Origin: Kaistella montana
GTDB lineage: Bacteria; Bacteroidota; Bacteroidia; Flavobacteriales; Weeksellaceae
Length of the DNA stretch: 64,000 nt
Direction of reading: 5' to 3'
Assembly: GCF_024436175.1 (NCBI RefSeq)
Contig: NZ_JANFQP010000001.1
Span: 1,240,001 to 1,304,000 of the forward strand
Position numbers and translations under genes: made by a program. Shown here piece after piece: positions 4,207-31,550 of the stretch. The notes under the pieces are model-generated. The model saw only the letters and a list, made by a program, of their open reading frames with translations, was not told the origin of the DNA and did not search any database. Within the stretch, counting starts at the first letter, position 1, and each line of letters begins with the position of its first letter.

Positions 4207-4214
4207 CAAACTTA
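4207..4214 (-). promoter_or_regulatory. Probable -7 box of the aceB-aceA operon
   Basis: TAAGTTTG on the minus strand, a match to TAnnTTTG, about 30 bases upstream of the aceB start codon. The -33 position falls inside the palindrome at 4231-4246. Confidence 0.5.
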
Positions 4215-4230
4215 TACAAAATATTTTAAT

Positions 4231-4246: not shown

Positions 4247-4282
4247 GAAAATAAATTTGCGAACAAATAATATTTTTTTTAT

Positions 4283-4290
4283 TAACTTTG
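4283..4290 (+). promoter_or_regulatory. -7 promoter box of the ScfR/RamB-like regulator
   Basis: TAACTTTG, matching TAnnTTTG, about 65 bases upstream of the likely ATG at 4354 and divergent from the aceB promoter. Confidence 0.5.
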
Positions 4291-4353
4291 TATCAATCGG
4301 ATTTTCAAGTAAATCTTTAGAAAGATTATAAATTGTATTCAATAGAAAAAAAA

Positions 4354-5862: not shown

Positions 5863-6522
5863 TTGTATTTGAATCCTCTGCAACTTCTTTTCCCGAATCG
5901 ATGTCTCGAGTGTAACCGAATAATATCTTCGGAAGAAGTGGTTTGCGGATTGTGTTATGACCAAATTCATTTTACACACAATCATTTATCGGAAAATAAT
6001 TTACTTAAAGAAAAATGTTCATTACTTTTCCCAGTAGAGAATGCGGTGGCTTTGCTACAATTTGAAAAAGAAAATCTCAGCAGAAAAATCGTACATCAAC
6101 TCAAATATGGAAATCGGGAAAAAATCGGGAAAATTTTAGCCAATTGGACTTTAGAAAAAACCGATGTAAAAAACTTAATTTTCGATGTTTTGGTCACCGT
6201 TCCACTACATCCAAAAAAGTTGAGAAAGCGAGGCTACAACCAGCTTCATCTCTACGCCGAAACTCTTTCTAAAGAATTAAGAATCCCTTTTGACCACACT
6301 TTAATTCGACGAAATTTTCACAAAAAAGCGCAGGCGAAAAGGAGCCGAAAAGAACGTGAAGCAACGCAAAATCTTTTCAGCATCACGAAAGAAATTTCCG
6401 GGAAACATATTTTATTGATTGATGATGTTTTCACGACTGGAAACACGATAAGTTCGATAGCGTGGGAAATCCTAAAATATCCTAATAACACTGTTTCTGT
6501 TTTAATGATCGCGACAGATTAA
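5863..6522 (+). CDS. ComF-family phosphoribosyltransferase-like protein
   Basis: Member of the ComF family, linked to natural transformation in other bacteria. N-terminal zinc-finger cysteines C14, C17, C28 and C31 (CLEC...CGLC) are followed by a phosphoribosyltransferase fold with the PRPP loop LLIDDVFTTGNT near residue 185. The basic segment KKLRKRGYNQ is also typical. Length 219 residues. No ATG fits the reading frame upstream of the first cysteines; TTG at 5863 (or a second TTG at 5869) is the likely start. A -7-like box (TAATTTTA) is just upstream at about 5843. It lies 39 bases after the ScfR-type regulator and converges on upp. Whether this organism is naturally competent cannot be judged from one gene. 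Confidence 0.82.
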   Translation: MYLNPLQLLFPNRCLECNRIISSEEVVCGLCYDQIHFTHNHLSENNLLKEKCSLLFPVENAVALLQFEKENLSRKIVHQLKYGNREKIGKILANWTLEKTDVKNLIFDVLVTVPLHPKKLRKRGYNQLHLYAETLSKELRIPFDHTLIRRNFHKKAQAKRSRKEREATQNLFSITKEISGKHILLIDDVFTTGNTISSIAWEILKYPNNTVSVLMIATD

Positions 6523-6531
6523 ACGAAAAAA

Positions 6532-6560
6532 AAATCCTTCACTGAAGAAAGGAAGGATTT
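6532..6560. terminator. Bidirectional terminator between comF-like gene and upp
   Basis: Inverted repeat AAATCCTTC / GAAGGATTT with an 11-base loop, flanked by A and T runs, between two convergent genes. Confidence 0.75.
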
Positions 6561-6580
6561 AAATTTTATGTTGAAGCCGT

Positions 6581-7231
6581 TTATCTTTGAAGTTTTTCGC
6601 CATAAGACAAATCCCCTGCATCTCCCAAACCAGGAGTAATATAACCTTTGGAGGTAAGTTTTTCATCAATAACCCCTACCCAAATTTTAGCGTTGGGATA
6701 TTCTTTTTGAATTGTTTCAACACCTTGCCTAGAAGCAATTGCCGCCACAATATGAAGTTGTGTAGGTTTACCATGATTCAACAAATCTTTGATGGCTTCT
6801 ATTAAACTCGCGCCGGTTGCTAACATCGGATCTGCAACGATTAAAGGTCTTCCATCGATATTTGGACATGTCAAATAATCTTGTTTTATAGAAAAATAAT
6901 CATTGGCATCGTGTTTTCGGTAAGCTGCAACGAAACCACAATCTGCTTTGTCAAGATAATTTAAAATCCCCTGAAACAAAGGAACACCCGCTCTTAAAAT
7001 CGTTGTAATTACCGGCTGAACTGCGATTTCTTTCACTTTAAGTTTGTCTAAAGGCGTGGTAACTTCTATTTCTTTCTGTTCTAAACCTTTACTAATTTCA
7101 AATGCGGCAATTTCGCCAATTCGCTCCATATTTCTACGGAATTTCATGCGGTCGTTTTGCACTTCTACATTTCGTAATTCATTAATCCAGGTATTAACAA
7201 GCGAGAATTGATCGGATAAAACAGTAATCAT
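6581..7231 (-). CDS. upp: Uracil phosphoribosyltransferase
   Basis: Salvages uracil to UMP using PRPP, in the cytoplasm. Length 216 residues. The PRPP-binding loop reads IVADPMLATGASLIEAI near residues 130-146, and the uracil-binding C-terminal GDAGDL segment is present as in other Upp proteins. ITTILRAGVPLF is also a family motif. It is a single gene, converging on the comF-like gene, with its own start at the ATG complement 7229-7231. Confidence 0.95.
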   Translation of the reverse strand: MITVLSDQFSLVNTWINELRNVEVQNDRMKFRRNMERIGEIAAFEISKGLEQKEIEVTTPLDKLKVKEIAVQPVITTILRAGVPLFQGILNYLDKADCGFVAAYRKHDANDYFSIKQDYLTCPNIDGRPLIVADPMLATGASLIEAIKDLLNHGKPTQLHIVAAIASRQGVETIQKEYPNAKIWVGVIDEKLTSKGYITPGLGDAGDLSYGEKLQR

Positions 7232-7281
7232 AGATATTAATTATGTGGGTAAAGTTCGGGAAAAATTCAATTAATAAAAAA

Positions 7282-7305
7282 CCTTTCAGAAAAAATTCTG
7301 AAAGG
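7282..7305 (-). terminator. Rho-independent terminator after der
   Basis: CCTTTCAG / CTGAAAGG inverted repeat with an AT loop; on the minus strand it is followed by a T run, directly after the der stop codon. Confidence 0.75.
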
Positions 7306-7315
7306 CTTAAAGTTT

Positions 7316-8626
7316 TTATTTTTGACGGAAATAAATTTCGATTGGAACTCCGGTAAAACCAAAATGTTTTCTCAATTGGTTTTCGGTGAATCTTTTGTAA
7401 GCTTCCTTCACATATTGCGGAAGATTACAGAAAAATACAAACTGCGGACTCGGCGTTGGAAGTTGTACGCAATATTTGATTTTCACGTATTTTCCTTTGA
7501 TAGCTGGCGGTGGCGTTTGTTCGAAAACCGGTAACATTACCTCATTTAATTTTGAAGTTTTAATTTTTTTAGCTCGATTTTCATACACTTCCATCGCTAC
7601 TTCTACCGCTTTCAAGATTCTTTGTTTGGTTAAAGCTGAAATAAACAAGATTGGAATATCAGTAAATTGACCAATTCTTTCTTTAATTTGATTCTCGAAA
7701 TCGCGGGTTGAATTGGTACTTTTATCTTCCACAAGATCCCATTTATTCACCAAAATCACGATTCCTTTTCTGTTTTTCTGAGCTAATCCGAAGATATTCA
7801 TATCCTGAGATTCCCAACCTAAAGTTGCATCCACCATGATAATTACCACATCGGAATATTCGATAGAACGGATGGATCTCATCACAGAATAAAACTCCAA
7901 ATCCTCTTTCACTTTAGCTTTACGACGCATTCCAGCGGTATCGACCAAGACAAATTCATGTCCGAATTTGTTGTATAAGGTCTGAATTGAATCTCTCGTT
8001 GTTCCTGCAATATCGGTTACAATATTTCGTTCAACATCGAGCAAAGCATTGGTCAAGGTAGATTTTCCAACATTTGGTCTTCCTGCGATGGTAATTTTTG
8101 GCAAACCTTCGAAAGGATCTTTATATTCGGTTGTTGGAAATTCTTTTACGATATCATCGAGCAATTCACCGGTTCCGGAGCCTGTAGCTGAAGATAAAGT
8201 GTAATATTTTTCGATTCCTAGTTGATAAAATTCGGTTGCAGCCAATTCTTCGGTTGCAGAATCTACTTTATTTACGGTAATATAAATCGGTTTGTTGGAT
8301 CGGCGAAGCATTTCATAAATCTCCTGATCGGTATCAGTCAAACCTTCTTCCACATTCAGCATGAAGATGATTGAAGTTGCTTCATCTACCGCCAATTCAA
8401 CTTGTTTGATGATTTCTTCTTGGAAAACATCTTCTGTATTTACTTCATAACCACCGGTATCAATCACGGTAAATTCCACACCATTCCAGTCAGATTTTCC
8501 GTAATGACGGTCTCTTGTAACCCCGGAAGTAGAATCTACGATCGCTTCTCTTCTCTCTAAAAAACGGTTAAACAGGGTTGATTTTCCTACGTTGGGACGC
8601 CCAACAATTGCAACAATATTGCTCAT
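7316..8626 (-). CDS. der: Ribosome biogenesis GTPase Der (EngA)
   Basis: Essential double GTPase for 50S subunit maturation. Two complete G domains are seen: first P-loop GRPNVGKST near residues 8-16 with DTGG and NKVD motifs, second P-loop GRPNVGKST near 182-190 with DTAG and NKWD motifs. The C-terminal KH-like domain follows (about 350-436). Length 436 residues, usual for the family. It follows murA on the same strand but a terminator stands between them, so it probably has its own transcript. Confidence 0.97.
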   Translation of the reverse strand: MSNIVAIVGRPNVGKSTLFNRFLERREAIVDSTSGVTRDRHYGKSDWNGVEFTVIDTGGYEVNTEDVFQEEIIKQVELAVDEATSIIFMLNVEEGLTDTDQEIYEMLRRSNKPIYITVNKVDSATEELAATEFYQLGIEKYYTLSSATGSGTGELLDDIVKEFPTTEYKDPFEGLPKITIAGRPNVGKSTLTNALLDVERNIVTDIAGTTRDSIQTLYNKFGHEFVLVDTAGMRRKAKVKEDLEFYSVMRSIRSIEYSDVVIIMVDATLGWESQDMNIFGLAQKNRKGIVILVNKWDLVEDKSTNSTRDFENQIKERIGQFTDIPILFISALTKQRILKAVEVAMEVYENRAKKIKTSKLNEVMLPVFEQTPPPAIKGKYVKIKYCVQLPTPSPQFVFFCNLPQYVKEAYKRFTENQLRKHFGFTGVPIEIYFRQK

Positions 8627-8721
8627 TAAATTTTGTTTAATAAATGAATTATTAATGGGTTACTTCAACTTTTGAAGCCCAAAAATTTTTGCAAAGATAG
8701 GTTTTAAAATTTAGAAATAAA

Positions 8722-8776: not shown

Positions 8777-10084
8777 TTAAATTCTTTCGATATCTGCACC
8801 TAAAGCGCGTAATCTTACGTCGATATTCTCATAACCACGGTCGATTTGCTCAATATTGTGAATGGTAGAATTTCCTTCCGCTGAAAGCGCAGCAATCAAC
8901 AAAGCGTTTCCAGCTCTGATGTCTGGTGAAACCATCGTTGTTCCACGCAAAGGATATTCGTGATTCAAACCAACAACGGTTGCGCGGTGCGGATCACACA
9001 AGATAATTTGCGCTCCCATATCGATTAATTTATCAACGAAAAACAATCGGGATTCGAACATTTTTTGGTGAACCAATACCGTACCTTTTGCTTGAGTTGC
9101 TACGACCAAAATAATGGAAAGCAAATCCGGCGTAAATCCCGGCCAAGGCGCATCGGAAACAGTAAGAATAGAACCATCGATGAACTTTTGAATCTTATAA
9201 TTTTCCTGAGCAGGAATATAAATATCATCACCAAGTCTTTCCAATTGAATTCCTAATTTTCGGAAAGTATTCGGAATTACACCCAACTCGTTCCAATGAA
9301 CATTTTTAATAGTGATTTCAGATTTGGTCATCGCAGCGAGTCCGATCCACGAACCGATTTCCACCATATCCGGAAGCATTGTATGCTCAGTTCCGTGGAG
9401 CTTATCTACTCCTTCAATGGTCAATAAATTGGACCCAATTCCGGAAATATTCGCACCCATTCTGTTCAACATTTTACAAAGTTGTTGCAAATACGGTTCG
9501 CAAGCAGCATTGTAAATTCTGGTTTTTCCTTTCGCTAAAACGGCTGCCATCACAATATTCGCCGTTCCGGTAACGGAAGCTTCTTCCAAAAGGATAAATT
9601 TTCCGCGAAGTTCGGTTGCTTTTAGTGAATAAAGATATTCGTTTTCGTCATAATGAAATTCTGCACCCAATTCTACAAACCCTTGAAAATGCGTATCAAG
9701 ACGTCTTCTTCCAATTTTATCGCCACCTGGAGTCGGCATATAAGCTTCACCAAATCTCGCCAACATCGGGCCTAAAAGCATAATGGAACCCCTTAGTCGG
9801 GAACCGTCTTTTTTGAATTCCGGTGATTTTATATAATCAAAATTTACAGAATCAGATTTGAAAGTATAATCACCATGACCGTTTTTGGTAACTTTCACTC
9901 CGAAATCTCCCAAAATTTCAATCAATCGGTTGACGTCATGAATATCGGGAATGTTATTGATTCGCACTTCGTCTTCGGTAAGCAATACCGCACACAAAAT
10001 CTGTAGCGCCTCGTTTTTGGCACCTTGCGGAGTAATTTCACCCTGTAATCTTTTTCCTCCTTTTATCTTAAATGATCCGCTCAT
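8777..10084 (-). CDS. murA: UDP-N-acetylglucosamine 1-carboxyvinyltransferase MurA with Asp in place of the catalytic Cys
   Basis: First committed step of peptidoglycan synthesis: transfers enolpyruvate from PEP to UDP-GlcNAc. Length 435 residues. Conserved K22-N23 of the PEP site and the RLRGSI segment (R98) are present. The catalytic loop, which in E. coli reads PGGCTIG with Cys115, here reads PGGDKIG with Asp122. A natural Asp at this site is known to abolish fosfomycin alkylation in several bacteria such as Mycobacterium tuberculosis, so intrinsic fosfomycin insensitivity of this enzyme is expected. The gene is co-transcribed with the upstream DUF4290 gene (two bases apart). Confidence 0.96.
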   Translation of the reverse strand: MSGSFKIKGGKRLQGEITPQGAKNEALQILCAVLLTEDEVRINNIPDIHDVNRLIEILGDFGVKVTKNGHGDYTFKSDSVNFDYIKSPEFKKDGSRLRGSIMLLGPMLARFGEAYMPTPGGDKIGRRRLDTHFQGFVELGAEFHYDENEYLYSLKATELRGKFILLEEASVTGTANIVMAAVLAKGKTRIYNAACEPYLQQLCKMLNRMGANISGIGSNLLTIEGVDKLHGTEHTMLPDMVEIGSWIGLAAMTKSEITIKNVHWNELGVIPNTFRKLGIQLERLGDDIYIPAQENYKIQKFIDGSILTVSDAPWPGFTPDLLSIILVVATQAKGTVLVHQKMFESRLFFVDKLIDMGAQIILCDPHRATVVGLNHEYPLRGTTMVSPDIRAGNALLIAALSAEGNSTIHNIEQIDRGYENIDVRLRALGADIERI

Positions 10085-10086
10085 GC

Positions 10087-10731
10087 TTATTTTCGGTTTT
10101 TATTGTGTTGAAAGTTTCTTCTTTTGTTTTGGTTATTCTGGTTCTGGTGTTTTCCGTTGGATTTCCCGTTTCGGTTGGTTGCGTAGTAAATTTTGCTTTT
10201 TTCAAGAGAGTCCAAACCAGTTAAATCTAATCTGTTTTCGGAAAGATCTTTTAAATGCCTAAAAATCACTTCATCCTGAACATGTTCTTTGTTATAAACA
10301 TTATAGGACTTCTTCATATTATTGGCAATTACTTGGATTAAAGCATCTTTTTCGTCGCCGTCTTCCAATTCGATGGCTTTGTCAATCAATTGCAAAATGC
10401 TTTTCCCGTAAAATTTAAAATCGCCTTGAAGTTTAGGATATTCCATTCTTTTTGGCTTAACCTGAAGCTCTTCCATCGTTGGAAAAGGATACGGTGAATC
10501 TACGTCTAAATCGTAATTAGCTAAGATAAAAAGGTGATCCCAAAGTTTATGTTTATAGTTTTCTTCGTCTCTCAATTGCGGGTTGCGCTGTCCCATAAAA
10601 TCTACGATGGCTACAGCCATTTCGTTGCGCTGTTCTTTAGTTTCCAGTTCTTTGCAACGCTCTACAAGCTGCTGTATAATTCTGCCGTATTCAGGCATGT
10701 GCAGATGCGTTCTATTGGTATTATATTCCAT
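10087..10731 (-). CDS. DUF4290 family protein
   Basis: Conserved protein of Bacteroidota with no assigned function, 214 residues. The N-terminal two thirds are mixed helical sequence (MEYNTNRTHLHMPEYGR; a GQRNPQLRD block near 50-60); the last 25 residues are rich in Asn, Lys and Gln (NQNNQNKRRNFQHNKNRK), a basic disordered tail that could bind nucleic acid. No membrane segment or signal is present. It stands two bases before murA, an arrangement I recognise from many flavobacteria, so a link to cell-wall growth is plausible but not shown. The -7 box TATATTTG lies four bases before the ATG. Confidence 0.85.
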   Translation of the reverse strand: MEYNTNRTHLHMPEYGRIIQQLVERCKELETKEQRNEMAVAIVDFMGQRNPQLRDEENYKHKLWDHLFILANYDLDVDSPYPFPTMEELQVKPKRMEYPKLQGDFKFYGKSILQLIDKAIELEDGDEKDALIQVIANNMKKSYNVYNKEHVQDEVIFRHLKDLSENRLDLTGLDSLEKSKIYYATNRNGKSNGKHQNQNNQNKRRNFQHNKNRK

Positions 10732-10735
10732 TTTG

Positions 10736-10743
10736 CAAATATA
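10736..10743 (-). promoter_or_regulatory. -7 promoter box of DUF4290-murA
   Basis: TATATTTG on the minus strand, then CAAA, then the ATG; the same spacing as at queD, implying a leaderless or near-leaderless transcript. Confidence 0.6.
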
Positions 10744-10816
10744 AGAATTAGTTTTAGGTAAAAAATCGGTCGTTACTTTAATTTTAGAGCGTTTTTGTTA
10801 TCGAAAATTCCTTGTT

Positions 10817-11230
10817 TTAATCAATGTTAGAGATAAATTTCTCTTTCTGATTCGGTGAAAGAACCATGCAGTGATCTGGAGCCAAACGATGACGATTTGC
10901 AGCAATTTTATTGTAAATAAAATCGGTAAGAGATTGTGGCAAATATTTCAAATAACTCAAAATACGATATTTTCCTCCCAAAACTTCAGCGATTTTAAAT
11001 ATTGCCTGAGATTTATCAAGATAAAAAGAATGAGGTTTCCAAAGATAAATCGTATTCAATTCTTGAGTTTCCAGACCTCTTTCCTTTAAAAAATGCTGTC
11101 CAAAATCGGATTGTAAAGACGAAAAAAGAAACTTATCCCGCGCATCATTTTTCAGAATCCACTGAATCCATTGATTGCAAAATCCGCAATCTCCATCATA
11201 AAAAACATAATATTTTAATGAGTTAACCAC
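10817..11230 (-). CDS. DCC-family thiol-disulfide oxidoreductase-like protein (DUF393)
   Basis: Small cytoplasmic protein, 137 residues, of the DUF393/YuxK family. The family-defining motif is seen as D12-G-D-C15-G-F-C18, with the usual aromatic context FYDGDCGFCNQWIQW. A thioredoxin-like redox role is assumed for the family but the substrate is unknown. It ends the short operon begun by the haem-binding protein two bases upstream, so both may act in redox or electron transfer. Confidence 0.82.
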   Translation of the reverse strand: MVNSLKYYVFYDGDCGFCNQWIQWILKNDARDKFLFSSLQSDFGQHFLKERGLETQELNTIYLWKPHSFYLDKSQAIFKIAEVLGGKYRILSYLKYLPQSLTDFIYNKIAANRHRLAPDHCMVLSPNQKEKFISNID

Positions 11231-11232
11231 GT

Positions 11233-11712
11233 TTATTTTTTCGGTTCTGCAGGCAGATTATGAGTTAATCGAATATCATTCTCCACTTTACTAAAATACT
11301 GAATCAATTCTTGCTTTTGCGCTTCGGAATATTTCGCTTCGGAATGAATCAAAACATAAGAATCCAAAGGCATTTCTCCTTTTTCGATCATTTCAACAAC
11401 TTCATGTAATTTATGCGCCTGTCTTTTCGGTTCGTAAGTAGCGAAAGTTGAAAAATTCAACTCTTTTCGGCCTTCATCAATGTGATCTTTCAGAAACCAT
11501 GCAATTGGTTGTACGTTGCTGTACCATGGATATTTAGATTCGTTGCTGTGACAATCGTAGCAACCGTTTCTAATCAAGTTCGCGGTACTTTCAGGCGTAT
11601 TTTTGATGGTAAGAAAATCCATTTGTGGTGTAGGAGCAGGATTGCTTTTATCAATCGGGAAAAACTGAATCAATACAAAGGCTACCAATAAAATAACGAG
11701 GATTTTTTTCAT
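11233..11712 (-). CDS. Haem-binding domain protein, membrane-anchored
   Basis: 159 residues. Residues 4-18 form a hydrophobic N-terminal anchor or signal. A single c-type haem attachment motif C51-Y-D-C54-H55 is followed by NESKYPWYSNVQP, the hallmark of the Haem_bd domain of Bacteroidota. It is expected to face the periplasm, carrying a covalent haem. Function is not established; a role as a peripheral cytochrome or haem-linked sensor is possible. It is the first gene of a two-gene unit with the DCC-family protein. Confidence 0.85.
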   Translation of the reverse strand: MKKILVILLVAFVLIQFFPIDKSNPAPTPQMDFLTIKNTPESTANLIRNGCYDCHSNESKYPWYSNVQPIAWFLKDHIDEGRKELNFSTFATYEPKRQAHKLHEVVEMIEKGEMPLDSYVLIHSEAKYSEAQKQELIQYFSKVENDIRLTHNLPAEPKK

Positions 11713-19995: not shown

Positions 19996-20745
19996 ATGGC
20001 AAAAGAAACATCAATTTTAAAGTTAAAAGGCGTGCTCGATGGCATGAGCTTTTACAAGAATTCCGAAGGACACTATGTACGTGCAAAAGGCGGAATAGAG
20101 AGAGAACGCATCATGAACGATGCTAATTTTGCAAGAACCCGTGAAAACATGAACGAGTTCGGCAATATCAACGGAGCAGGCAAACTGATCCGCAACAGTG
20201 TGAGCGAATACCTAAAACGCGCAAAGGATATACGAGCCAGCAGCCGATTGGTAAGCGCTATCTCGAAAGTCAAAAACCTAGACAGTGTTTCACCACGTGG
20301 ACACCGAAAGTTTGCGATTGGATTTGCAACCCCCGAAGGACAGGCACAATTGCTGGGATTTGATTTCAACAAGTATGCTCCTTTGAGCCAAATTCTGAAT
20401 AAGGATTTTGTGTTGGACCCCACAGCAGGCAGCTTAACCATTGCGGATTTCAAGCCTAAAGAAAACCTGAGTGTTCCCGAATATGCAACCCATGTAAGTA
20501 TTGGTTTGGCTTGCGCAAGTCTAGATGCTGAGAATGACCATTCGCAAACGGTGTACGCTACTCCGAATCCTATGGTTATTAATGAAGAGGTACAAACCTT
20601 GACGGTGACTTTGGATTCACTTCCTACTGATCCGGGGATAAAAATGTTCTATGTATTCATCGCGTTTTACCAAATGATCAATGCGGAGTTGTATCCTTTG
20701 CGAAGCGACAAGATGAATGCGCTGAAGCTGGTGCATATTGTGTAG
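19996..20745 (+). CDS. Uncharacterised Bacteroidota protein, 249 residues
   Basis: Function unknown. The N terminus has the pattern SILKLKGVLDGMSFYKNSEGHYVRAKGG, then a conserved-looking Arg/Asn block (NDANFARTRENMNEFGN), which I recall from a family of similar-length proteins found in flavobacteria, often as paralogues. The rest looks like mostly beta structure. No signal peptide, membrane segment or catalytic motif is visible. It stands alone, flanked by 950 and 790 bases of repeat-rich DNA; an A-rich leader GTCAAAAAA precedes the ATG. The isolated setting suggests a late acquisition or a gene with long regulatory regions. Confidence 0.75.
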   Translation: MAKETSILKLKGVLDGMSFYKNSEGHYVRAKGGIERERIMNDANFARTRENMNEFGNINGAGKLIRNSVSEYLKRAKDIRASSRLVSAISKVKNLDSVSPRGHRKFAIGFATPEGQAQLLGFDFNKYAPLSQILNKDFVLDPTAGSLTIADFKPKENLSVPEYATHVSIGLACASLDAENDHSQTVYATPNPMVINEEVQTLTVTLDSLPTDPGIKMFYVFIAFYQMINAELYPLRSDKMNALKLVHIV

Positions 20746-21277: not shown

Positions 21278-21533
21278 GGGATTTAAATGTTAAATTTTCA
21301 CTTGACCATTAAGGTATTAAGAGGAGTAATAAGCTAGAATGTGCCGACTACAATCAAACAAAAACAAAACACCACCGTTTCCCATGAATAAGAACTTATT
21401 GTAGCGATTTTTTTATTTTATAAAAATAGCATGAAATGTATTTCCAAATTCTTAATTTTACGGAAACATTTAGGCTTTCAATTTTTTTGTTTCCTGATGT
21501 TTACAACTATTAATGACATTTACTTTAATTGCT

Positions 21534-22769
21534 ATGAAACAACGACTTGGATTTCTACTTTTGCTTTTGTTTTCACTATCTTTCTATGGACAGCAAAACC
21601 AGAGTGCTGATGAATTGTTCCAAGAAGCACGAACCGCTGCATTTGATAAGAAAGACTACCCCACCTCTATCGCCCTTGCTAAACAAGCTTTAGAAAAATC
21701 GCCTAATTATACCGATATTGCTGTGTTTTTAGGAAGATTATACACTTGGAATGGAGATGAGGCTGCAGCCCGAAACGTATTTACAGAACTTTTTCAGAAA
21801 GATGTTCAGGACGAAGATTTCTTCCTTGCCTATGCTTCGCTGGAATATTGGAATGACCAGAATGACAAAGCTGTGGAAATTTTAGATAAGGGCCTCCTAT
21901 CTCATCCTCAGTCCGAAGAATTATGGACGCTAAAAGCAAGAGCTCTTTCCTCTTCTAAGAAGTACTCTGAAGCTGAAAAATCGGTAGAAACTTTGCTGGC
22001 TATTAATCCGCAAAACACTGAAGGCCGGGAACTCGCCACTAAAATCAATGACTTGAGTGCGAAGAATGCCGTGGGTATTACCTATAATTTCTCCCACTTT
22101 GATCAACAATTTGATGATGACTGGCATATAGTGGGAATCAGTTATAAAAGGGTCACTCCCATAGGCTCGGTAATCCTAAAAGGGAATTATGCCAATAAAT
22201 TTGCCACCAGTGGAACTCAGTTTGAAATCGAAGCCTACCCAAGACTCTCTAAAACCTTCTATCTGTACGTTGGCGCAGGTTATTCCGGTGATGTAGGCAT
22301 TTTCCCGAAATACAGAACGGGTGTTTCCCTGAACGCAAACCTCCCTAAAAGCTTTGAGGCAGAAATTGGGTATCGACAGCTTTATTTTAGCGAAAACCTT
22401 TGGATGTATACCGCATCTGTAGGAAAATATTACAAAAACTTCTGGTTCAATCTCCGTACTTATATCACTCCGGATCGCGAAAACATTTCTCATTCCTATA
22501 CGGGAACGGTAAGGTATTACCTAAAAGGAGCTCAGGATTATATTGCCTTCCAAGCCGGAACAGGAATTAGTCCGGAAGAAAACCGAAACAATCTTTTAGA
22601 TACTACCACCTATAAACTAAAGACTTATAAGGTTGGTGCCGAGTATAACTTTTCGGTGAAAAAGACCAACCTTTTTTCTGTTTCTGCGATGTATTTCAAC
22701 CAAGAGTTTCGCCCGAATGTAAAAGGCAACCAATTTGATATCACCTTGGGATACACTAGAAAATTCTAA
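21534..22769 (+). CDS. YaiO-family outer-membrane beta-barrel protein with TPR region
   Basis: 411 residues from the ATG at 21534, which begins a clear signal peptide (MKQRLGFLLLLLFSLSFYG, then QQNQS). Residues about 25-170 form tetratricopeptide-like helices (SIALAKQALEKSPNYTDIAVFLGRLYTWNGDEAAARNVF; LEYWNDQNDKAVEILDKGL). The rest, about 175-411, is alternating amphipathic strands ending in Phe (GYTRKF), as in outer-membrane barrels. TPR plus barrel is the plan of exopolysaccharide export proteins such as PgaA. The convergent gene 14 bases away is a processive glycosyltransferase fusion, which also mirrors the yaiO/yaiP pairing in E. coli. I infer export of its polysaccharide. An in-frame start at 21513 is less likely. 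Confidence 0.85.
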   Translation: MKQRLGFLLLLLFSLSFYGQQNQSADELFQEARTAAFDKKDYPTSIALAKQALEKSPNYTDIAVFLGRLYTWNGDEAAARNVFTELFQKDVQDEDFFLAYASLEYWNDQNDKAVEILDKGLLSHPQSEELWTLKARALSSSKKYSEAEKSVETLLAINPQNTEGRELATKINDLSAKNAVGITYNFSHFDQQFDDDWHIVGISYKRVTPIGSVILKGNYANKFATSGTQFEIEAYPRLSKTFYLYVGAGYSGDVGIFPKYRTGVSLNANLPKSFEAEIGYRQLYFSENLWMYTASVGKYYKNFWFNLRTYITPDRENISHSYTGTVRYYLKGAQDYIAFQAGTGISPEENRNNLLDTTTYKLKTYKVGAEYNFSVKKTNLFSVSAMYFNQEFRPNVKGNQFDITLGYTRKF

Positions 22770-22783: not shown

Positions 22784-25700
22784 TTATTTTTTATTCCTAT
22801 AATTGACCATCACTGAATCGGGCATTATTTTACCGGAGGAATAAAATTGGGCATTCATTTTTTTAAAGTTAGCGAACTGATTATTTATTTTGGTGAATTC
22901 AGACTGATTATCTACCGCGGATTCTTTCATGTCATTAAGTTTCATCAGCATCTCGCTTTCAAGATGATAAGACCCATAATGATAATCAATAAGCTCACTT
23001 TTACTTCTCATCATAGGATAACCATGAGCCTGCAAATCCAAATCTGATTGCAACCCCTTTCCTACCCAAGTAACCGTGGATGGAGTGATGAGCTTATAAT
23101 TGTTCTTATAATACGCAACAAGAGACGGTGCCACATCAAAATGACTCACTACTTTTTTGAAAGACTTCGCTCCTTTCAGCAGGGGCGAATAGATCACCAA
23201 AGGTACATGGTATCGGTCTATTTTAGATTGCATCGTAATTTCAGGCATACTGTGATCACCAGTAATCACAAAAATAGTATTGGCGAAATCCGGTCGCTTA
23301 CGGTAATTATCAAAAAAATGTTTTAGAGCATCGTCTGCATTCAACACAGACACCAGTTGTTTCTTGTGCATTGCTGCCCATTTTTGTTGCTCGGGAGAAA
23401 GCCCCCCCGACTTTAATCTATGTGCAAATAATTTTTCGTAATAAGTACTATTATTAATTAAGAACGGATTGTGGGTAGATAAAGTTAATATAATATTGAA
23501 ATAAGGACCTGCCTGAGGTTGCTGCACTTGAAGCATTTTCGAAAATACTGCTTGATCTTCATATCCCCAACTCTCTCCGCCATGGCTTGCCGGCAATTTT
23601 TTGTATGGAGCATCATAGGAAGACTGATCAACAATGTGACTTACTCCTGAAAAATCTAAAAACTTTCTAGTTTGGTCAAAATCAGCATTTCCTCCATAAA
23701 AGAATCCGGTATCAAAGCCATTTTTTTTCAGAATATTATACAGGTTGAAGTGAGCGGGTATTTTCTCCATCTCCATAAACCCATTCCTTCCATATGGCAG
23801 TGATCCGGTAATTGTAGGCAGAACAGAGAATGTTCTACCAGAAGAACTCAAACTATTTTCCCAATAAAGACTTTTTGATGCTAATGAATCAAGGAAAGGC
23901 GTGAAGTTTCCGATATATCCGTTCGGTGAACTGTAAGCATGTCCCATTCCTTCCAGCACAACGAAAACCAAGTTTGGTGTTTTTTGAGAATGGTTCATAT
24001 AAGATCCTAAAAAATCTCGGGTTTTTTCTTTTCTCCAGAAAGGATAGTTTGGATTTATCGCATCGGGATCCATTTCTATTTCCTCTTTCGCATTCAATAA
24101 ACGAGCTATTCCAGGATATTTACTTATCATATTATCAATATTAGAATCGAAAAAATAGGCCCATTTGCTTTTTGCAGCTGTTTGTTCAAATTCATTTTTG
24201 AACTTCACTTGAATGCCATTTGATGGGATAAAAAAGGCCAATATGCTAATTGCCAACATGATCACCCCAACATACCATGACTTGAAAGTAGATTTGAAAG
24301 CCAGCCACAAAGGAATAATCGCTGCCGCAACCAAAATCACTGTTAATACTATGTTTTTGACATTGAGGATGCCACTAGCCTGCAGAATCTGCTTCATTTC
24401 TGCTTTGCTATAGTAGAGAAAATCCGCTCCCAATAAATTTTTGGATTCCGAGAAATAGAAGAAAAGGAAATATTGACTGATAATAACCACTGCCCCGATA
24501 AGAATGGTCAACGTTTTTGCCCAACTCTCTTTTATAAAAGATAATAACAAATAAAGCATCCCCATACCGGAAACAAATTTGAAAACAAAGAGCAGGTTTT
24601 CAAAGAAAAGATTCTCTGCTATAGCCCTGTAATTATCGTCATTAAAGTTGTAACGGTACCATCCCCATTCGGCAGAAACACCTATTAAAAAAAGTACTGA
24701 AAATACAGGTGCGAATACCCCCCAGTTTCTGAGGGCCACTTTAAGAATTTTCCAAATACGATCTTTTAGTGGTAGATTTTTATCTGCCTGATTAAAACCT
24801 TGCCTGGTCATTTCGCCCCAATGATGCGTTTTCCTAAAATAATCAAAGAACCCCCTGACTCCTGACCAAACGACGATAGGATGGAAATAAAAAGGCTCTA
24901 AAAAAGCAGAACTGATTAGTCCTGTGAAATCTTTTCTTTTGTTATATACCTGATGGCTCACCAAATCTACAAGCACTGCATAAATAGAAAATAAAATTCC
25001 TGTGCAAATGACTAATGCAAAAAGTGCCCAAAAGAAAGGCCAGCTGATAATCCCCAATATTAAGAATATAACAAAAACAACATACCCAAAAAACTCTATT
25101 AAAGGACCAAGGAACTCAAAAAAGAACCAATAAGGCAGACTCACCATTCCGAGTTTGCCATAATTAGGGTTGAACATGAGCTTACGATGCTTCCACAGTG
25201 TTTCCATGGTTCCCCGCATCCATCTATTTCGTTGTTTTTTGAGAACATCTTTGGTTTCTGGTGCTTCGGTCCAACATAAAGGGTCAGGAATTGTTATTAC
25301 TTCATACGGCTCCTTCAGCTCTTCCATATACTTGCGCATTCTTACCACAAGTTCCATATCTTCACCCACCGTATTGCGATCATATCCGCCACACGCAAGC
25401 ACAATCTTCCGATCGAAAACCCCGAAAGCACCTGAGATAAGAATTAATCCAGAAGCCCGGGACCAAGCCATACGTCCAAGGACGAAAGCCCGGATATACT
25501 CCAAGGCTTGGCTTCGTCCCAATAAGGTTTTGGGGATATTAATATCTACTATTTTACCATCTATAATCTTACAATTATTGGCAAGTCTGATAATCCCTCC
25601 ACATGCGATGACCTTTTTATTTGTTTGTTCCAAAAATGGTTTAGCAAGTTTCAGGATAGAATCTTGTTCTAATATACAATCTACATCTATACATACCAAA

Positions 25701-26203
25701 TAATCACCGGAAGAAATATTCACCCCTACATTTAATGCGTCTGCTTTGCCTCCGTTTTCTTTGTCTACCACAATAAGTTTGCTGAAAGCTGGATTTTTGC
25801 TTTTGTAAATCCCTTTGATTTGATTGGTTTCAATGTCTCCTTGGACAAAAAAATCGGTGGATTCCAATTCATAAGCATTAATCAATTTCTGCATCGAATC
25901 GTCTTTACTACCATCATTCACAATGATAATTTCTAAATTATGATAATAAAGTGAGAGTAGAGACCTTACATTTTCCACAACAGTAATCCCTTCGTTATAT
26001 GCTGGGGCAATAAGACTAAATGTTGAAGCATTGGGATCACCAGCAATAATGCTATAATCGGTAAAAGTATTTTGCCTTTTATAGAGAATCACGGCACCAA
26101 GTGCGTAAACAGCAATCCATCCGTAAACGAATACAACTGCGGCACCGTAAATTAGGAAAATCCAAATAACGAGTTCGTAAATAAAATGAGAAAATGTTAT
26201 CAT
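22784..26203 (-). CDS. Fusion of processive GT2 glycosyltransferase and LTA-synthase/sulfatase-like domain
   Basis: 1139-residue inner-membrane protein. N-terminal membrane segments (7-45) precede a GT2 catalytic domain with PAYNEG (about 68), NDGS, DVDC (about 172, DxD motif), GED and QRNRW (about 323-327, the QxxRW motif of processive synthases such as PgaC, cellulose and hyaluronan synthases). Further membrane helices follow (360-440, 500-700), then a periplasmic alkaline-phosphatase-superfamily domain (about 735-1075) resembling LtaS: VVLEGMGH (metal Glu near 749), SSSGRTFSVLPT (nucleophile Thr near 785), HGGESWGYED and TGDHSMPE (near 980). It would make a polysaccharide and add phosphoglycerol, phosphoethanolamine or another group, or trim it. 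The gene overlaps the HEAT-repeat gene by four bases, last of a four-gene operon. Confidence 0.88.
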   Translation of the reverse strand: MITFSHFIYELVIWIFLIYGAAVVFVYGWIAVYALGAVILYKRQNTFTDYSIIAGDPNASTFSLIAPAYNEGITVVENVRSLLSLYYHNLEIIIVNDGSKDDSMQKLINAYELESTDFFVQGDIETNQIKGIYKSKNPAFSKLIVVDKENGGKADALNVGVNISSGDYLVCIDVDCILEQDSILKLAKPFLEQTNKKVIACGGIIRLANNCKIIDGKIVDINIPKTLLGRSQALEYIRAFVLGRMAWSRASGLILISGAFGVFDRKIVLACGGYDRNTVGEDMELVVRMRKYMEELKEPYEVITIPDPLCWTEAPETKDVLKKQRNRWMRGTMETLWKHRKLMFNPNYGKLGMVSLPYWFFFEFLGPLIEFFGYVVFVIFLILGIISWPFFWALFALVICTGILFSIYAVLVDLVSHQVYNKRKDFTGLISSAFLEPFYFHPIVVWSGVRGFFDYFRKTHHWGEMTRQGFNQADKNLPLKDRIWKILKVALRNWGVFAPVFSVLFLIGVSAEWGWYRYNFNDDNYRAIAENLFFENLLFVFKFVSGMGMLYLLLSFIKESWAKTLTILIGAVVIISQYFLFFYFSESKNLLGADFLYYSKAEMKQILQASGILNVKNIVLTVILVAAAIIPLWLAFKSTFKSWYVGVIMLAISILAFFIPSNGIQVKFKNEFEQTAAKSKWAYFFDSNIDNMISKYPGIARLLNAKEEIEMDPDAINPNYPFWRKEKTRDFLGSYMNHSQKTPNLVFVVLEGMGHAYSSPNGYIGNFTPFLDSLASKSLYWENSLSSSGRTFSVLPTITGSLPYGRNGFMEMEKIPAHFNLYNILKKNGFDTGFFYGGNADFDQTRKFLDFSGVSHIVDQSSYDAPYKKLPASHGGESWGYEDQAVFSKMLQVQQPQAGPYFNIILTLSTHNPFLINNSTYYEKLFAHRLKSGGLSPEQQKWAAMHKKQLVSVLNADDALKHFFDNYRKRPDFANTIFVITGDHSMPEITMQSKIDRYHVPLVIYSPLLKGAKSFKKVVSHFDVAPSLVAYYKNNYKLITPSTVTWVGKGLQSDLDLQAHGYPMMRSKSELIDYHYGSYHLESEMLMKLNDMKESAVDNQSEFTKINNQFANFKKMNAQFYSSGKIMPDSVMVNYRNKK

Positions 26204-27267
26204 ATTTTTTTCTGGAGTGCGTGTTTAATGATATGAATTAATTCTTCGGAAGCAGTAGGATCTTGGATAAACAAATTTAAATACTCCTGATGTCCTAATG
26301 CAAAAAGTGCTTCGGCAGCATGAATTCTGATGCCCGTATTGGGATGCTCCAGCAGTTGTGTTTTTAGAAAACCGACTGAGCCCTGATCGTTGGAAACCTC
26401 CATTTTTTTCAAAATTTCGTACTGCGCTTCCAAAGGTTGATCGGGGAAAACCTCGGCAAGAGCAGAAATTGTTTTTTCATTCTCTAATGACAATAGTGTT
26501 CTCACCGCATTTACTCTCACCTCAACATCTGAATGTTGCAATAGATCCCATACTGCAGGATAAAAGGACAGCATTTGGAATTTCCTCAGTAAACTAAGGG
26601 CAAAAATAACGACTGAGTTATTGGAACTCTGTAACCAATTATTAATCTCTACTTGATCCTCTTCAGGAATGCTAGTGAGCGAAATAAGTAAGCGAAGCTG
26701 TTGCCAATCAGAAATATCATGAGAGATATTATTAAGAAAGCTTAGCCCTTTGAATCCCTTGAAAGCTAACATTGCATATTGAGATTCTTGATAAACCATA
26801 GTAGATGGATGTTTTAGAAACGACTCTATTTTCGGAAGAGCAGCATCCACTTTCATCGCCGTCAGTTCCTGGATACCACCTGCTATGAGATGCGGTTTTT
26901 TCTGACTGAGTTTGCTGTAGGCTTCTTTGCTAAGGTTATAAGTTTCAAACAAATCCTTGATTTCTTCTTGTGCAATACCCGAAAACTTTTTTTCAGTACT
27001 TACCAATTTTTCTAGGAAAAGCTCTCTGAATGCAGATCCATGAGAAACCTTCAAGAACTCCTCACTATCAGTTTCCTCCTCTTTACCATATACGATGGCT
27101 TCAGATACTTTCTCATCTATTAATCGAGACCATTCGGAGAGATTTTTCAGTGATCTGTATTGGCTAAAACTATAAATGAGCACTGCGATAATCAGTATGA
27201 TAACTATAACCAGCAATACAACAAAAGCGATGAAAAGTTCGTGAATCGTAATATTAAAAATTACCAT
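26200..27267 (-). CDS. Membrane-anchored HEAT-repeat protein
   Basis: 355 residues. One N-terminal transmembrane helix (about residues 10-32, LFIAFVVLLVIVIILIIAVLIY) is followed by a cytoplasmic helical region with HEAT-like repeats: KIESFLKHPSTMVYQESQYAML, VWDLLQHSDVEVRVNAVRTLLSL and LKTQLLEHPNTGIRIHAAEALFAL blocks spaced by about 35-45 residues. HEAT repeats bind proteins, so a scaffold between the response regulator and the glycosyltransferase is a reasonable guess. It lies between those two genes (four-base gap, four-base overlap). Confidence 0.82.
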   Translation of the reverse strand: MVIFNITIHELFIAFVVLLVIVIILIIAVLIYSFSQYRSLKNLSEWSRLIDEKVSEAIVYGKEEETDSEEFLKVSHGSAFRELFLEKLVSTEKKFSGIAQEEIKDLFETYNLSKEAYSKLSQKKPHLIAGGIQELTAMKVDAALPKIESFLKHPSTMVYQESQYAMLAFKGFKGLSFLNNISHDISDWQQLRLLISLTSIPEEDQVEINNWLQSSNNSVVIFALSLLRKFQMLSFYPAVWDLLQHSDVEVRVNAVRTLLSLENEKTISALAEVFPDQPLEAQYEILKKMEVSNDQGSVGFLKTQLLEHPNTGIRIHAAEALFALGHQEYLNLFIQDPTASEELIHIIKHALQKKI

Positions 27268-27271
27268 TGTT

Positions 27272-27628
27272 TTATTTTACAGCTATTCTTTTAATCCTAA
27301 GCAGCAATTCATTTGGGCTGAACGGCTTCACAATAAAATCTGCCGCTCCCATTCCGAAAGCATTAATTACGACCTCCTCTTGCCCCATGCTGGAAAGCAT
27401 AATAACAGGAATGTTTTTTCCTGACGACTTCACAGCAGAAAGAATCTCAATACCAGAAGCAAATGGCATCATAATATCGGTTATGATTAGATCTACATCT
27501 GTATTTTGAAAGGTCTCAATCGCCTCTTTCCCGTTATGGGTTATAATAACTTCGTGGCCTTCTTTTTTTAGTTTGTGTTCAATTGTTTTCAGAATAAGTT
27601 CGTCGTCTTCAGCAATTAAAATTAGCAT
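27272..27628 (-). CDS. Single-domain response regulator
   Basis: 118-residue CheY-like receiver without output domain. Acidic pocket E7-D8-D9, phospho-acceptor D51 (LIITDIMMP), the Ser of MLSSMG and Lys of VKPF are all present. It follows the hybrid kinase with a seven-base gap and precedes the HEAT gene, so it probably takes phosphate from the kinase HPt domain and acts by protein contact rather than DNA binding. Confidence 0.93.
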   Translation of the reverse strand: MLILIAEDDELILKTIEHKLKKEGHEVIITHNGKEAIETFQNTDVDLIITDIMMPFASGIEILSAVKSSGKNIPVIMLSSMGQEEVVINAFGMGAADFIVKPFSPNELLLRIKRIAVK

Positions 27629-27635
27629 ATTATCT

Positions 27636-30600
27636 TTATTTTATCATTTCTTTAATTAAATCAAGCGCCACTTTGATTTCCTGAAGGATTTCTTTAGGAA
27701 AATCAGGAGCTTCTGCATGTTTTTTCAAATTATCTTCCCATTGTAAAGACATTTCCGATAATTTGAATAATCCAGCTGTACCAGCTGTACCCTTGAGTTT
27801 ATGAATTATTTTTTTGAGTTCCTCTGAAGGATGATTACTTTCCGCTATTTTCAAATTTTCTTCAGAGGCCATTAACTCTTGTAACAAGATATTTAAAAAT
27901 ATCTTTTTGAATTCTTCATCTCCACCTACTTGTTCCTCAAGAATATCGAGATTCCAATGTTCGTCAAGCATTGGTTTCTGCTGGTTTTCATTTTCTATTT
28001 TATTTTTTACAAGATGTTTCTTTAACATTTCTAACAGATCAATCTGTCTTAAAGGCTTAGGCAAAAAGTCGTCCATTCCTGCTTCTAAGCATTTTTCTTT
28101 TTCACCAGAAACATTCCCTGCAGTAACCCCAATAATTAAAACCGTTGAATAACCAGGCAATAAACGAATCTCTTTCGTTGCCTGAATTCCATCCATAATA
28201 GGCATTTGAACATCCATCAAAATGAGGTCAAACTCTTCTAACTTACAAGCTTCCAACGCCTGCAAACCATCAACCTTTTCGGTAAGTTGAGCATCTGGCA
28301 CGATGGTCTCTAACATTTTACGATTCAGCACCATATTTACCGGATTATCATCAACCAGTAATACATTGAGATGGGAAGGGAACAATGCTGAATGTCCAGT
28401 TTCTTTTGCCACAGTATGATGTACGGTAATGTTTTTTGAATTTTTGATAGCCCGTTTCAGGGTGTCATATAGCTCTTCACATTTCACAGGTTTTAGCAAG
28501 CGGAAGGAATTGGGATCTTCTTGAAAATACTCCAACACCTCAGATTCTTCGGAGGAGGTATGAAGTATCACTAGAGGTGCTGACTCCTCTTGCTCTTTGA
28601 AGAGTTGTTTGATTTTATCGATGGTTTCCAAGCCAGAAATAAACGGCATGTGATAATCCATTAAAATAATATCAAATCTTTCTCCTTTACTTAATATATC
28701 GAGTGCTTCGAATCCGTTGGAAGCTAATTTTGTATTGATCTTTTTGTAATTCAGCATGTGCTGAATGATTTTTCTGTTATTTTCATTATCATCTACCACC
28801 AATACACTTTGCAAAGGCAAACCTTCATTCTCCTCTACAGCATTTTCAAAATCGGCTTTTTCATAGGGAAGTTCTATATCAAAATAAAATACCGAACCTT
28901 TTCCCAATTCACTAATCAGGTTGAGTTTACTGCCCATATATTTTAGTAAATTGTTGGATATAGTAAGTCCCAATCCTGTACCACCAAAGCGTTTGCTCAC
29001 AGAGCTGTCTTCTTGAGTAAATGCATCGAAAATTCTCTGTTGTTTATCTTCCGGGATTCCTATTCCTGTATCTCTTACTGCAAAACGAAGCGTAATATTC
29101 TGATCATCCAAGTGTAGTTTTTCAACTTTTAGCTCTATCTCTCCCTTTTCTGTAAATTTATTGGCGTTGCCCAATAAATTAATAAGCACTTGCTTAATGC
29201 GTGGCTCATCCATAAACAACATTTTCGGAAGCCCTTGCTCAACATTGAGAAGCAGTTCTATCTTTTTCTGTTGAGATTGATAGAGAATCACGTTCATCAC
29301 TTGATTCAGCAACTTATAAATATTACATTTTTCAATAAACAGTTCCAATTTTCCAGATTCTATTTTTGAAAAATCGAGAATATCGGAAATAATGCTGAGT
29401 AAGGTTTCCCCAGATTCGTTTATATAATTAAGATACTGAGTTTGCATCTCATTAAGTGGCGTTTTGAGCAAAAGATCCGAGAATCCAATCACTCCATTGA
29501 GTGGAGTACGTATTTCGTGGCTCATGTTTGCCAGAAACTCAGACTTGGCCTTATTGGCAAGATCTGCTAATTCTTTGGCTTTTTTAAGTTCTTCATTGGC
29601 CTTTATCGTTGCTGTAATATTCTGTACGGTAACTATTACTCCGCCTGTAACCCCGTTAGAAATATACCAAGGGGAGGCTTCGAAATTATAATGTTGAGGT
29701 TCGGATGCCTCGTATAGTTGAAAGTAAAAATCTGCATCTTTATGGGCTTTACCTTCTAATGCTTCATAATATATTTTTTTTCTTTCCTCAGGTATATTGG
29801 GATAAAGATCGAAGATATGTTTCCCGATAATTTCCTTACCAGACATTTGAAACTCTTCGGCCCAGGTATTGCTTATCACCAAAAAGTTCAGGTCTTTATC
29901 AAACATGGCTACAGCGGTGGGAACATCATTCACAAAAGACTGAAGCATGGCTTCTTTTTTCGCAAGTTCAAAATAGGTTCTTTTGAAATTGTCTATATCC
30001 TGAATAATCCCAAACACTTTTGTACACACTCCATTTTCGAATTCGGGAATTCCTTTTACTCTTACCCATATTACATTTCCGTCTGCTTGTTTTAGCCGGA
30101 GTTCTTCATCATAAGCCATCCCTTCATTGACTACTTTATTGAACAGATAAGTAATGCGATCCTTATCTTCATCTACATAAAAGTCTATTGCTCTTTCCAA
30201 ATCAGGCACATAATCCTGATCAACTTTGTGGATCTCCCTAGTATAGCGAGACCAAAAAATGGAATTTTTTTTAAGATTAATCTCCCATCCTCCTACTTGA
30301 GCAACCGCACTTGTCTGTTCCAGAATTTTCCGGGTGTAGATTAAATCTTTTTCCAGTGACATTCTATCCGTGACATTCAGCGCAGTACTCAACACATAAG
30401 GATTGCCTTTTTCATCTTCCTCCATCATATTATGATACATCCAAATGATTTCTTTACCTTCTTTTGTAAGCAGTAGCATATTGCCCTTATCTTCTTTATT
30501 CACCATCATCCGTTCCAAATACTGTTCCAAAAATGGCCAGTGCTCCTGTGGGATAAGGTCTTTTAAATTAAGTTTTTTTAATTCTTCATTGGAATAATTC

Positions 30601-31550
30601 AGCACTTCACAGCCCCTCTTATTCACCGCAAGAATATTGCCCTCCATATCATGGATACTCATTAGACCGATGGCATTATTGAAAAAACTCTTGAACCTCC
30701 TTTCAGAACTCTCTAGCTTTAAGTTTTCTTCTACCAATTGAGTAATATTCTTCCCAAAACAAAAAAACTCATTGTGTAGATGATTGCGTTTTAATTGCCA
30801 CTCGATAATTACTTCTTCATCTTCAGCAATTTTGGTATTGGTTGTAAATAAGAATTCATCTATTTGATCCAGTTTTTTATTCGTCAGTGAAACTGCTTGC
30901 TCAACATTTAAAAGATCGATAAAACTTCGACCAATCTCTTGATTTTTCTTTAATTTAAAAGTATTTAAAAAAACTTGATTGAGATTTTTAAATTTAAAAT
31001 TATTGTCCAGAACACAAATCAGATTATTGGTAATATTGAATATATTTTCGAAATATTCCGCGTGCAAATTTTGTTTCTTATTTATTAATATCCTAGTAAT
31101 AGTCTTTCCTATCTTTTTAAGAAACTCCATTTGTTTTTCTGATAAAATATTGGGCTTATAATCCATAACACAAAGAGTCCCTAGCACAAAACCCTCATCG
31201 TCAACAAGCGGAAATCCCGCATAAAACCTAATTCCACTTTCAATAACAATATCCATAGACCTCGAATCCAACAAAGTGTCATTAATTATCAGTATTTCAT
31301 TCGTTGCGATTACATATTGACATATTGTGTTCTTACGATCCACTGTATCAAGCTCAATTCCTACACAACTCTGTATACTCTGGGCTTGTTCTGTCATCGT
31401 AGCAATAAGGGATAGTGGACAATCCGCGACTAAACATGCGCCTTCTGCGAAAATATCCAATTCAGGATCTTTTTCTAAATTCAATAAATTTAGGAATTGC
31501 AACTTTTTTAATCTTTCTTCTTCATTATTAGGAATTTGATATTCTGGCAT
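27636..31550 (-). CDS. Cytoplasmic hybrid histidine kinase: GAF, several PAS, HisKA-HATPase, two receivers, HPt
   Basis: 1304 residues, no transmembrane segment, so the signal is sensed inside the cell. Order: GAF (about 20-160), four PAS-like domains (about 170-665), HisKA with [10 protein letters not shown] (His near 678), HATPase with N, G1 and G2 boxes ([24 protein letters not shown]), receiver 1 ([19 protein letters not shown]), receiver 2 ([22 protein letters not shown]) and a C-terminal HPt domain with HKLKGTAGT (His near 1250). A full phosphorelay is thus in one chain. It heads the operon with the response regulator, HEAT protein and glycosyltransferase fusion. A TATATTTA box lies about 130 bases upstream. 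PAS/GAF ligands are unknown; redox or small-molecule sensing is possible. Confidence 0.92.

Follow-up and report, generated by a model that had tools for sequence, protein, structure and literature searches.

In a window of 64,000 nucleotides from Kaistella montana (contig NZ_JANFQP010000001.1, positions 1,240,001 to 1,304,000), which is the whole stretch of DNA analyzed here, four genes on the minus strand encode, from 5' to 3', a hybrid histidine kinase, a stand-alone CheY-like receiver (REC), a membrane-anchored HEAT-repeat protein, and a fusion of a family 2 glycosyltransferase (GT2) with a lipoteichoic acid (LTA)-synthase-type domain. The genes are separated by 7, 4, and -4 bases, and a gene for a tetratricopeptide repeat (TPR) and YaiO outer-membrane beta-barrel protein converges on the fusion gene with 14 bases between them (Table 1). 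When the coordinates were rechecked, these five open reading frames (ORFs) and their spacing were as a preliminary description had given them, and the motifs QRNRW, LEGMGH, SGRTFS, and GDHS that it had named were present in the translation of the fusion. The locus is one form of a wider REC-HEAT-GT2 core, to which a kinase and a transferase domain may or may not be added.

Table 1. Genes and domains of the operon and the convergent exporter gene, in window coordinates.
Feature	Position	Strand	Basis
Hybrid histidine kinase, 1304 aa	27636..31550	-	ORF list, Pfam, hydropathy
HPt domain, kinase residues 1219-1292	27675..27896	-	Pfam PF01627, 30.6 bits (cut-off 24.6)
Stand-alone CheY-like receiver (REC), 118 aa	27272..27628	-	Pfam PF00072, 101.1 bits
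Membrane-anchored HEAT-repeat protein, 355 aa	26200..27267	-	Pfam, hydropathy, structure model
GT2-transferase fusion, 1139 aa	22784..26203	-	Pfam, hydropathy, structure model
Processive GT2 synthase domain, fusion residues ~1-475	24779..26203	-	Motif residues
Linker and five membrane helices, fusion residues ~476-700	24104..24778	-	Ahead of transferase domain
LTA-synthase-type (alkaline phosphatase superfamily) domain, fusion residues ~718-1137	22793..24052	-	Active-site residues
TPR and YaiO outer-membrane beta-barrel, presumed exporter	21513..22769	+	PF19413, TIGR04390

A genome collection was scanned with the fusion as query, and the loci of the best 80 of 144 relatives were compared, many of them closely related to one another. 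They came from Chryseobacterium, Kaistella, Sphingobacterium, Myroides, Flavobacterium, Empedobacter, Pedobacter, Paradesertivirga, Ferruginibacter, and other Chitinophagales. REC, HEAT, and GT genes lay on the same strand and in the same order in 80 of 80 loci, with an overlap of the HEAT and GT genes of 7 bases in 55 loci and of 4 bases in 13. A hybrid kinase preceded REC in 75 loci, that of L079 being shorter at 855 aa, and YaiO was present in 78, five Sphingobacterium loci carrying it upstream and co-directional rather than convergent. The fusion was split into two adjacent genes in two Pedobacter loci. When all ORFs of 110 aa or longer from the 80 loci were clustered across 10 genus groups, only the kinase, REC, HEAT, GT/fusion, and YaiO families recurred in at least eight groups; the remaining recurrent clusters were two antisense ORF sets within the fusion gene (four groups) and one three-group cluster (four loci). 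Because the order is conserved across the 80 loci, the gene set is more than chance, and a chance neighborhood was rejected on this order, on the five-family recurrence, and on the HEAT-picked loci and phylum-wide GT-HEAT pairing described below. The preliminary description had proposed a single functional unit, with a logic of synthesis, modification, and export that takes in the YaiO gene, and had named a lack of conserved order in relatives as grounds for refuting it; the order was kept, the conserved gene content supports the logic, and YaiO belongs to the unit. Upstream of YaiO, a 249-aa ORF (window positions 19996-20745) lies outside it.

The full fusion is patchy, being found in 11 of the 29 genomes of its own family in the order sample, in searches that score few candidates per genome (three in the fusion and GT searches, five in the HEAT search). 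The core was then followed from either of its larger genes. HEAT adjoined GT in 28 of 29 loci picked by GT matches, and the 29th (L103; L145) had an 859-aa HEAT protein upstream. Conversely, GT was adjacent in 20 of 20 loci picked with a HEAT profile, where REC was found in the stretch in 17, YaiO in 14, a kinase in 8, and a transferase in 5. These 20 were hand-chosen, mainly as full-length HEAT matches, with others (e.g., G270 and G352) left unopened, and 18 were new, G124 and G158 already being among the GT-picked loci as L100 and L099. Across the phylum, 94 of 395 sampled genomes gave GT matches with E values of 1e-60 or lower. Each of the 55 strongest of 106 listed GT matches (at least 562 bits) had a same-strand HEAT match beside it, as paired by eye from the coordinates, and the 12 opened of the 51 weaker matches had HEAT in 12 (weak in L260, 21 bits, and L261, 14 bits) and REC in 10. 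Among 58 collected modules, 56 had a REC gene no more than 7 kb away, 55 with it on the same strand; the presence of HEAT in all 58 is partly by construction, as loci were mostly picked by HEAT or GT matches, and the less biased counts are those of the 80-locus set, the 29 GT-picked loci, the 20 HEAT-picked loci, and the 395-genome survey. The 58 modules omit L163 (a paralog in the K. montana genome) and L170 (which has no GT), and rows from the same genome are L101 and L148, L110 and L147, and L112 and L144. What had been described as a four-gene operon holds for its REC-HEAT-GT2 core and not for the kinase and transferase domain as fixed parts, both being optional in relatives.

Several relatives showed other arrangements. 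In L160, L169, L171, L178, and the second module of L148, the order is HEAT, GT, YaiO, a gene of 732-744 aa, and REC; the gene before REC encodes 737 aa in L178, and the fourth gene in L160 matches DUF4838 (313 bits). The product of the fourth gene is possibly a glycosidase of the polymer. The module also occurs on plasmids. On pEMTOL05 of Emticicia oligotrophica (L208), HEAT, GT, and YaiO genes are accompanied by ones for a response regulator and an "LTA synthase". Plasmid 4 of Bacteroides finegoldii (L209) has HEAT and GT genes together with one for a DUF4838 protein and one for a 988-aa protein whose TPR-barrel matches are weak. GT relatives outside Bacteroidota, at 37-40% identity, occur in plasmid records H4-H11 (Paenibacillus, Mesorhizobium, haloarchaea, and Erythrobacter). 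The HEAT query had no match in records H4-H11, which may mean that only Bacteroidota have the HEAT partner.

Gene trees showed that the parts of the core are inherited together. The GT and HEAT trees had 28 of 53 splits in common and the GT and REC trees 21 of 53; in a control with relabelled HEAT trees (n = 200), 0.2 splits were shared with the GT tree on average and 2 at most. The HEAT and REC trees were quick trees, with L161 and L176 (no REC within 7 kb) dropped beforehand. Four of the five two-module genomes in the trees (G002, G114, G176, and G437) keep GT and HEAT in matching separate clades, and the clade pairing of the fifth, G329, was not resolved. One copy, recorded under "Flavobacterium sp. 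TAB 87", falls with those of Chryseobacterium and Kaistella at a support of 100/99, and Myroides and Sphingobacterium copies fall inside the same fully supported 13-row clade, the inner order of which is mostly weak. Provided that these records are correctly named, the grouping suggests horizontal transfer of the unit as a whole. The state of the transferase domain, hand-assigned as fused, adjacent, near, or absent, changes at least nine times on the GT tree.

By Pfam, the kinase contains GAF, at least three PAS regions, HisKA, HATPase, two REC domains, and HPt, and by hydropathy it has no clear membrane helix, with one borderline stretch at residues 33-51. These domains and a stand-alone receiver with a phosphorylatable Asp make up the parts of a multi-step phosphorelay, and the kinase HPt domain is presumably the phosphodonor for the stand-alone REC. 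This 118-aa receiver has no output domain; the Asp at its position D51 is kept in 53 of 56 aligned RECs and K101 in 56 of 56. In L269 (positions 3633-5195), a 520-aa protein supplies the receiver beside HEAT as its C-terminal part and has a second receiver match at its N-terminus. The HEAT protein has a single strong N-terminal membrane helix by hydropathy (residues 13-31, within a helix spanning 8-60), followed by a HEAT/ARM solenoid; its structure model has a pLDDT of 92.8 and matches the HEAT/ARM fold. An N-terminal hydrophobic helix was found in 141 of 142 HEAT proteins, and the region of W188/Q190 and W211/N216 is among those with conserved residues. GGDEF and PilZ domains were each found in 0 of 28 module-bearing genomes, against 8 of 14 control genomes for GGDEF and 5 of 14 for PilZ, and control by cyclic di-GMP (c-di-GMP) through either domain was rejected on these counts.

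The suggestion that REC and HEAT act as a post-translational switch is still the best reading. It is favored because the synthase keeps HEAT beside it, and REC in nearly all cases, in relatives that often lack the kinase, transferase, and YaiO, and because GGDEF and PilZ were not found in the 28 genomes. We infer control of the synthase by REC and HEAT from their co-inheritance with it and from the lack of an output domain on the receiver; most simply, phosphorylated REC would bind HEAT, and HEAT would act on the synthase. Its effect could be activation or release, through either activity or placement.

Within the fusion, Pfam places GT2 at residues 63-194, and D97, D173, D175, E281, D282, Q324, R325, R327, and W328 are invariant in 150 of 150 rows. 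The domain has the DxD, ED base, and Q(Q/R)xRW motifs, whose roles we take to be those in processive GT2 synthases, together with membrane helices, and its fold resembles hyaluronan synthase. Hydropathy indicates a helix at residues 8-26, two helices in 368-412, and five between 489 and 661; a weaker hydrophobic stretch at 253-271 lies within the GT fold and was not counted as a membrane helix. Membership among PgaC/IcaA synthases of poly-N-acetylglucosamine (PNAG) was rejected, as model TIGR03937 (PgaC_IcaA) scored 118.8 bits against a cut-off of 422.3. No sixth family, such as a deacetylase of the PgaB/IcaB kind, recurred in the 80 loci, no deacetylase model having been run on the loci or the genome. 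One GT of this family (L259, positions 6078-8666) has about 380 extra C-terminal residues. As for the presumed exporter, PF19413 (YaiO) scored 230.7 bits (cut-off 23.9) and TIGR04390 202.7 bits (cut-off 32), with TPR matches preceding the barrel, which places it in the YaiO family; it would pass the polymer through the outer membrane.

We then considered the second half of the fusion and the group that it may transfer. Pfam reports Sulfatase at residues 743-1030, and the profile and fold matches of the domain include LtaS and LtaP. The metal ligands and threonine nucleophile (E751, T791, H911, D983, and H984) align with LtaS/LtaS2, and all five catalytic residues are intact in 96 of 96 fused rows. 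In the unfused rows L144, L145, L147, L112, and L110, DSSSH, DSKSH, or DNSSH replaces ETHDH; these modules have HEAT proteins 693-859 aa long, and L146 of the same clade is intact. The FWNR segment of LtaS, whose W354 and R356 bind glycerol phosphate, is replaced by FDxx, with D843 kept in 108 of 113 rows. LtaS family membership was rejected on the loss of this segment and on a score of 22.9 bits for NCBIfam NF053595, which has a cut-off of 970.

The lipid genes bear on the donor. The K. montana genome has one PF01066 (CDP-alcohol transferase) match, for which pssA is the best model, and no PF01066 match over the pgsA cut-off; a PG (phosphatidylglycerol) synthase of another family is possible in this genome. 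A single PF01066 match was also found in four other module genomes of the 15 examined, and phosphatidylserine decarboxylase was found in 15 of 15, K. montana included, as a phosphatidylethanolamine donor would call for. In the available text of the descriptions of two Chryseobacterium species, phosphatidylethanolamine is a major polar lipid, aminolipids are listed, and the word phosphatidylglycerol does not occur (PMC7064467, PMC7036476). Given the loss of FWNR, the lone PssA-like match together with the decarboxylase, and these lipid lists, phosphatidylethanolamine is the likelier donor, and phosphoethanolamine would be favored over phosphoglycerol as the transferred group. Transfer of phosphoglycerol, as the preliminary description had supposed for an LtaS-type domain, is unlikely on the same grounds. 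Elsewhere in the same genome, outside the window, a 640-aa LtaS-like protein is encoded divergently from an adjacent PssA-like gene (L163, positions 8842-10764 and 10879-11592). This adjacency hints at a possible link of LtaS-type enzymes here to phosphatidylethanolamine rather than phosphatidylglycerol.

The synthases for cellulose, PNAG, alginate, and Pel in well-studied Gram-negative bacteria are switched by c-di-GMP, which controls BcsA and PgaCD. In place of the c-di-GMP control of BcsA, the synthase here is accompanied by REC and HEAT genes. As in the Bcs system of Escherichia coli (BcsA, BcsG, and BcsC; PMC11379886), an inner-membrane processive GT2 is combined with a TPR-barrel exporter and with a head-group transferase that is anchored in the membrane and works on the nascent chain. 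BcsG decorates cellulose with phosphoethanolamine using the nucleophile Ser278 (PMC11379886), whereas the transferase here is LtaS-like with a threonine nucleophile. Further differences from Bcs are that synthase and transferase form one chain and that no sixth family such as BcsB recurs in the 80 loci. The PNAG system PgaABCD/IcaA is similar in that PgaC_IcaA is the best NCBIfam model and in its TPR-barrel export; it differs in that the synthase falls far under the PgaC cut-off, that the 80 loci share no further recurrent family, and that the 28 genomes gave no GGDEF or PilZ match. LtaS has five membrane helices. The transferase domain shares with LtaS/LtaP and Vibrio VP1736 (3lxq) the catalytic fold, the metal and threonine residues, and five preceding helices; unlike LtaS/LtaP, it is joined to a GT2 synthase and scores far under the NCBIfam cut-off, and it does not keep the FWNR segment, at which 3lxq (FDNM) also differs from LtaS. 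A GT2 gene adjoins a YaiO barrel gene in the yaiP-yaiO-yaiS region of E. coli as well, which is not known to hold a REC, HEAT, or LtaS-type gene. Identity to the Chlorella virus hyaluronan synthase is 18-19%, and a hyaluronan product is not implied. In the literature searched, where most subscription journals lay outside coverage, the system is undescribed; what is new is that, in many Bacteroidota, a GT2 synthase family has a REC-HEAT pair as its standing partner, and that synthase and transferase are fused.

Taken together, we consider it about an even chance that the locus encodes a synthase-dependent system for a surface polysaccharide, switched by a phosphorelay, in which REC and the membrane HEAT protein gate the synthase, the polymer is decorated with phosphoethanolamine, and YaiO exports it. 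The cytosolic kinase would sense a signal through its GAF and PAS regions and pass phosphate from HPt to the 118-aa receiver. The phosphorylated receiver would dock on the cytosolic solenoid of the HEAT protein, which the N-terminal helix would tether to the inner membrane, and docking would activate (or release) the synthase. From its family, the GT2 domain is expected to polymerize a nucleotide sugar and thread the chain through its own membrane part. The periplasm-facing five-helix transferase would decorate the chain as it emerges with a phospholipid head group, for which phosphoethanolamine taken from phosphatidylethanolamine is the likeliest candidate, and the TPR-YaiO barrel would carry the polymer across the outer membrane. 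REC and HEAT would do for this synthase what c-di-GMP does for the cellulose and PNAG synthases. The general form of this proposal, a widespread Bacteroidota synthase class that is gated by a phosphorylated CheY-like protein on a membrane HEAT adaptor rather than by c-di-GMP, and is here fused to a decorating head-group transferase, is one that we hold tentatively, at a little under even chances.

Several observations weigh against this proposal. Co-inheritance is evidence that the genes probably form a functional unit and is not evidence of physical contact, and the sequences examined included no clear fusion of REC with HEAT or of HEAT with GT. Three of the 56 RECs lack the Asp at D51. No kinase lay upstream in 5 of the 80 loci, and one was matched in only 28 of the 58 modules (some stretches being short; that of L001, the window's operon, ends before its kinase, which lowers the count), with YaiO in 47 and a transferase in 37; the hybrid kinase was rejected as an obligatory part on its two counts. 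Five unfused rows, from three genomes of which two are counted twice, have a degenerate transferase active site, seemingly a dead copy retained in the unit. The pTM of 0.59 for the fusion model leaves domain placement unsure, and PgaC_IcaA, the best NCBIfam model for the GT domain, does not name the polymer at its score. On the lipid side, the pssA score in the K. montana genome, 86.0 bits, is under the NCBIfam cut-off of 107, and a second CDP-alcohol transferase is present in 10 of the 15 genomes, none of the four scanned scoring over a curated cut-off.

Other readings change what the parts do. The HEAT protein could be a scaffold that recruits synthase, transferase, and exporter to an envelope complex, with REC phosphorylation setting where and when; we regard this as a lesser possibility, as the nearness and shared strand of REC in nearly all modules (56 and 55 of 58) fit a direct signaling role. 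The kinase is not always matched beside the module, and in the variant order REC lies downstream of the 732-744 aa gene (DUF4838 in L160), away from HEAT, as one would expect if the main output of the phosphorelay were elsewhere and the stand-alone REC were a phosphate sink or shared relay, placed here by operon history. Against this, REC moves with GT and HEAT through the gene trees and the duplicated modules and is found within 7 kb in those same 56 modules, which makes such a reading distinctly improbable.

Two further alternatives concern the LTA-synthase-type domain. It may move phosphoglycerol as LtaS and OpgB do, giving a glycerophosphate-substituted polysaccharide or a teichoic-acid-like polymer, and the LtaS/LtaP profile and fold matches and the conserved metal ligands and threonine nucleophile speak for this; the FDxx segment with its conserved D843, the lone PssA-like PF01066 match with none over the pgsA cut-off, and the 22.9-bit score make it unlikely. 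Membrane helices joined to an LTA-synthase-type fold are also seen in PbgA/YejM, and the domain could be a lipid-sensing or structural module of that kind, or a hydrolase, with no polymer modification. The five intact catalytic residues in all 96 fused rows and the repeated fusion to and fission from the synthase on the GT tree argue against such a role, to which we likewise give a low probability.

For the proposed phosphorelay-gated synthase, REC and the membrane HEAT protein are a concrete candidate for how such synthases are gated in the 28 Bacteroidota genomes in which GGDEF and PilZ were not found, a candidate switch that is kept beside a synthase family matched in 94 of the 395 genomes sampled across the phylum. 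From the fusion, one would predict that genera such as Chryseobacterium and Sphingobacterium make a surface polysaccharide that bears phosphorus. If the proposal is true, it would represent a different kind of direct post-translational control over exopolysaccharide synthesis.

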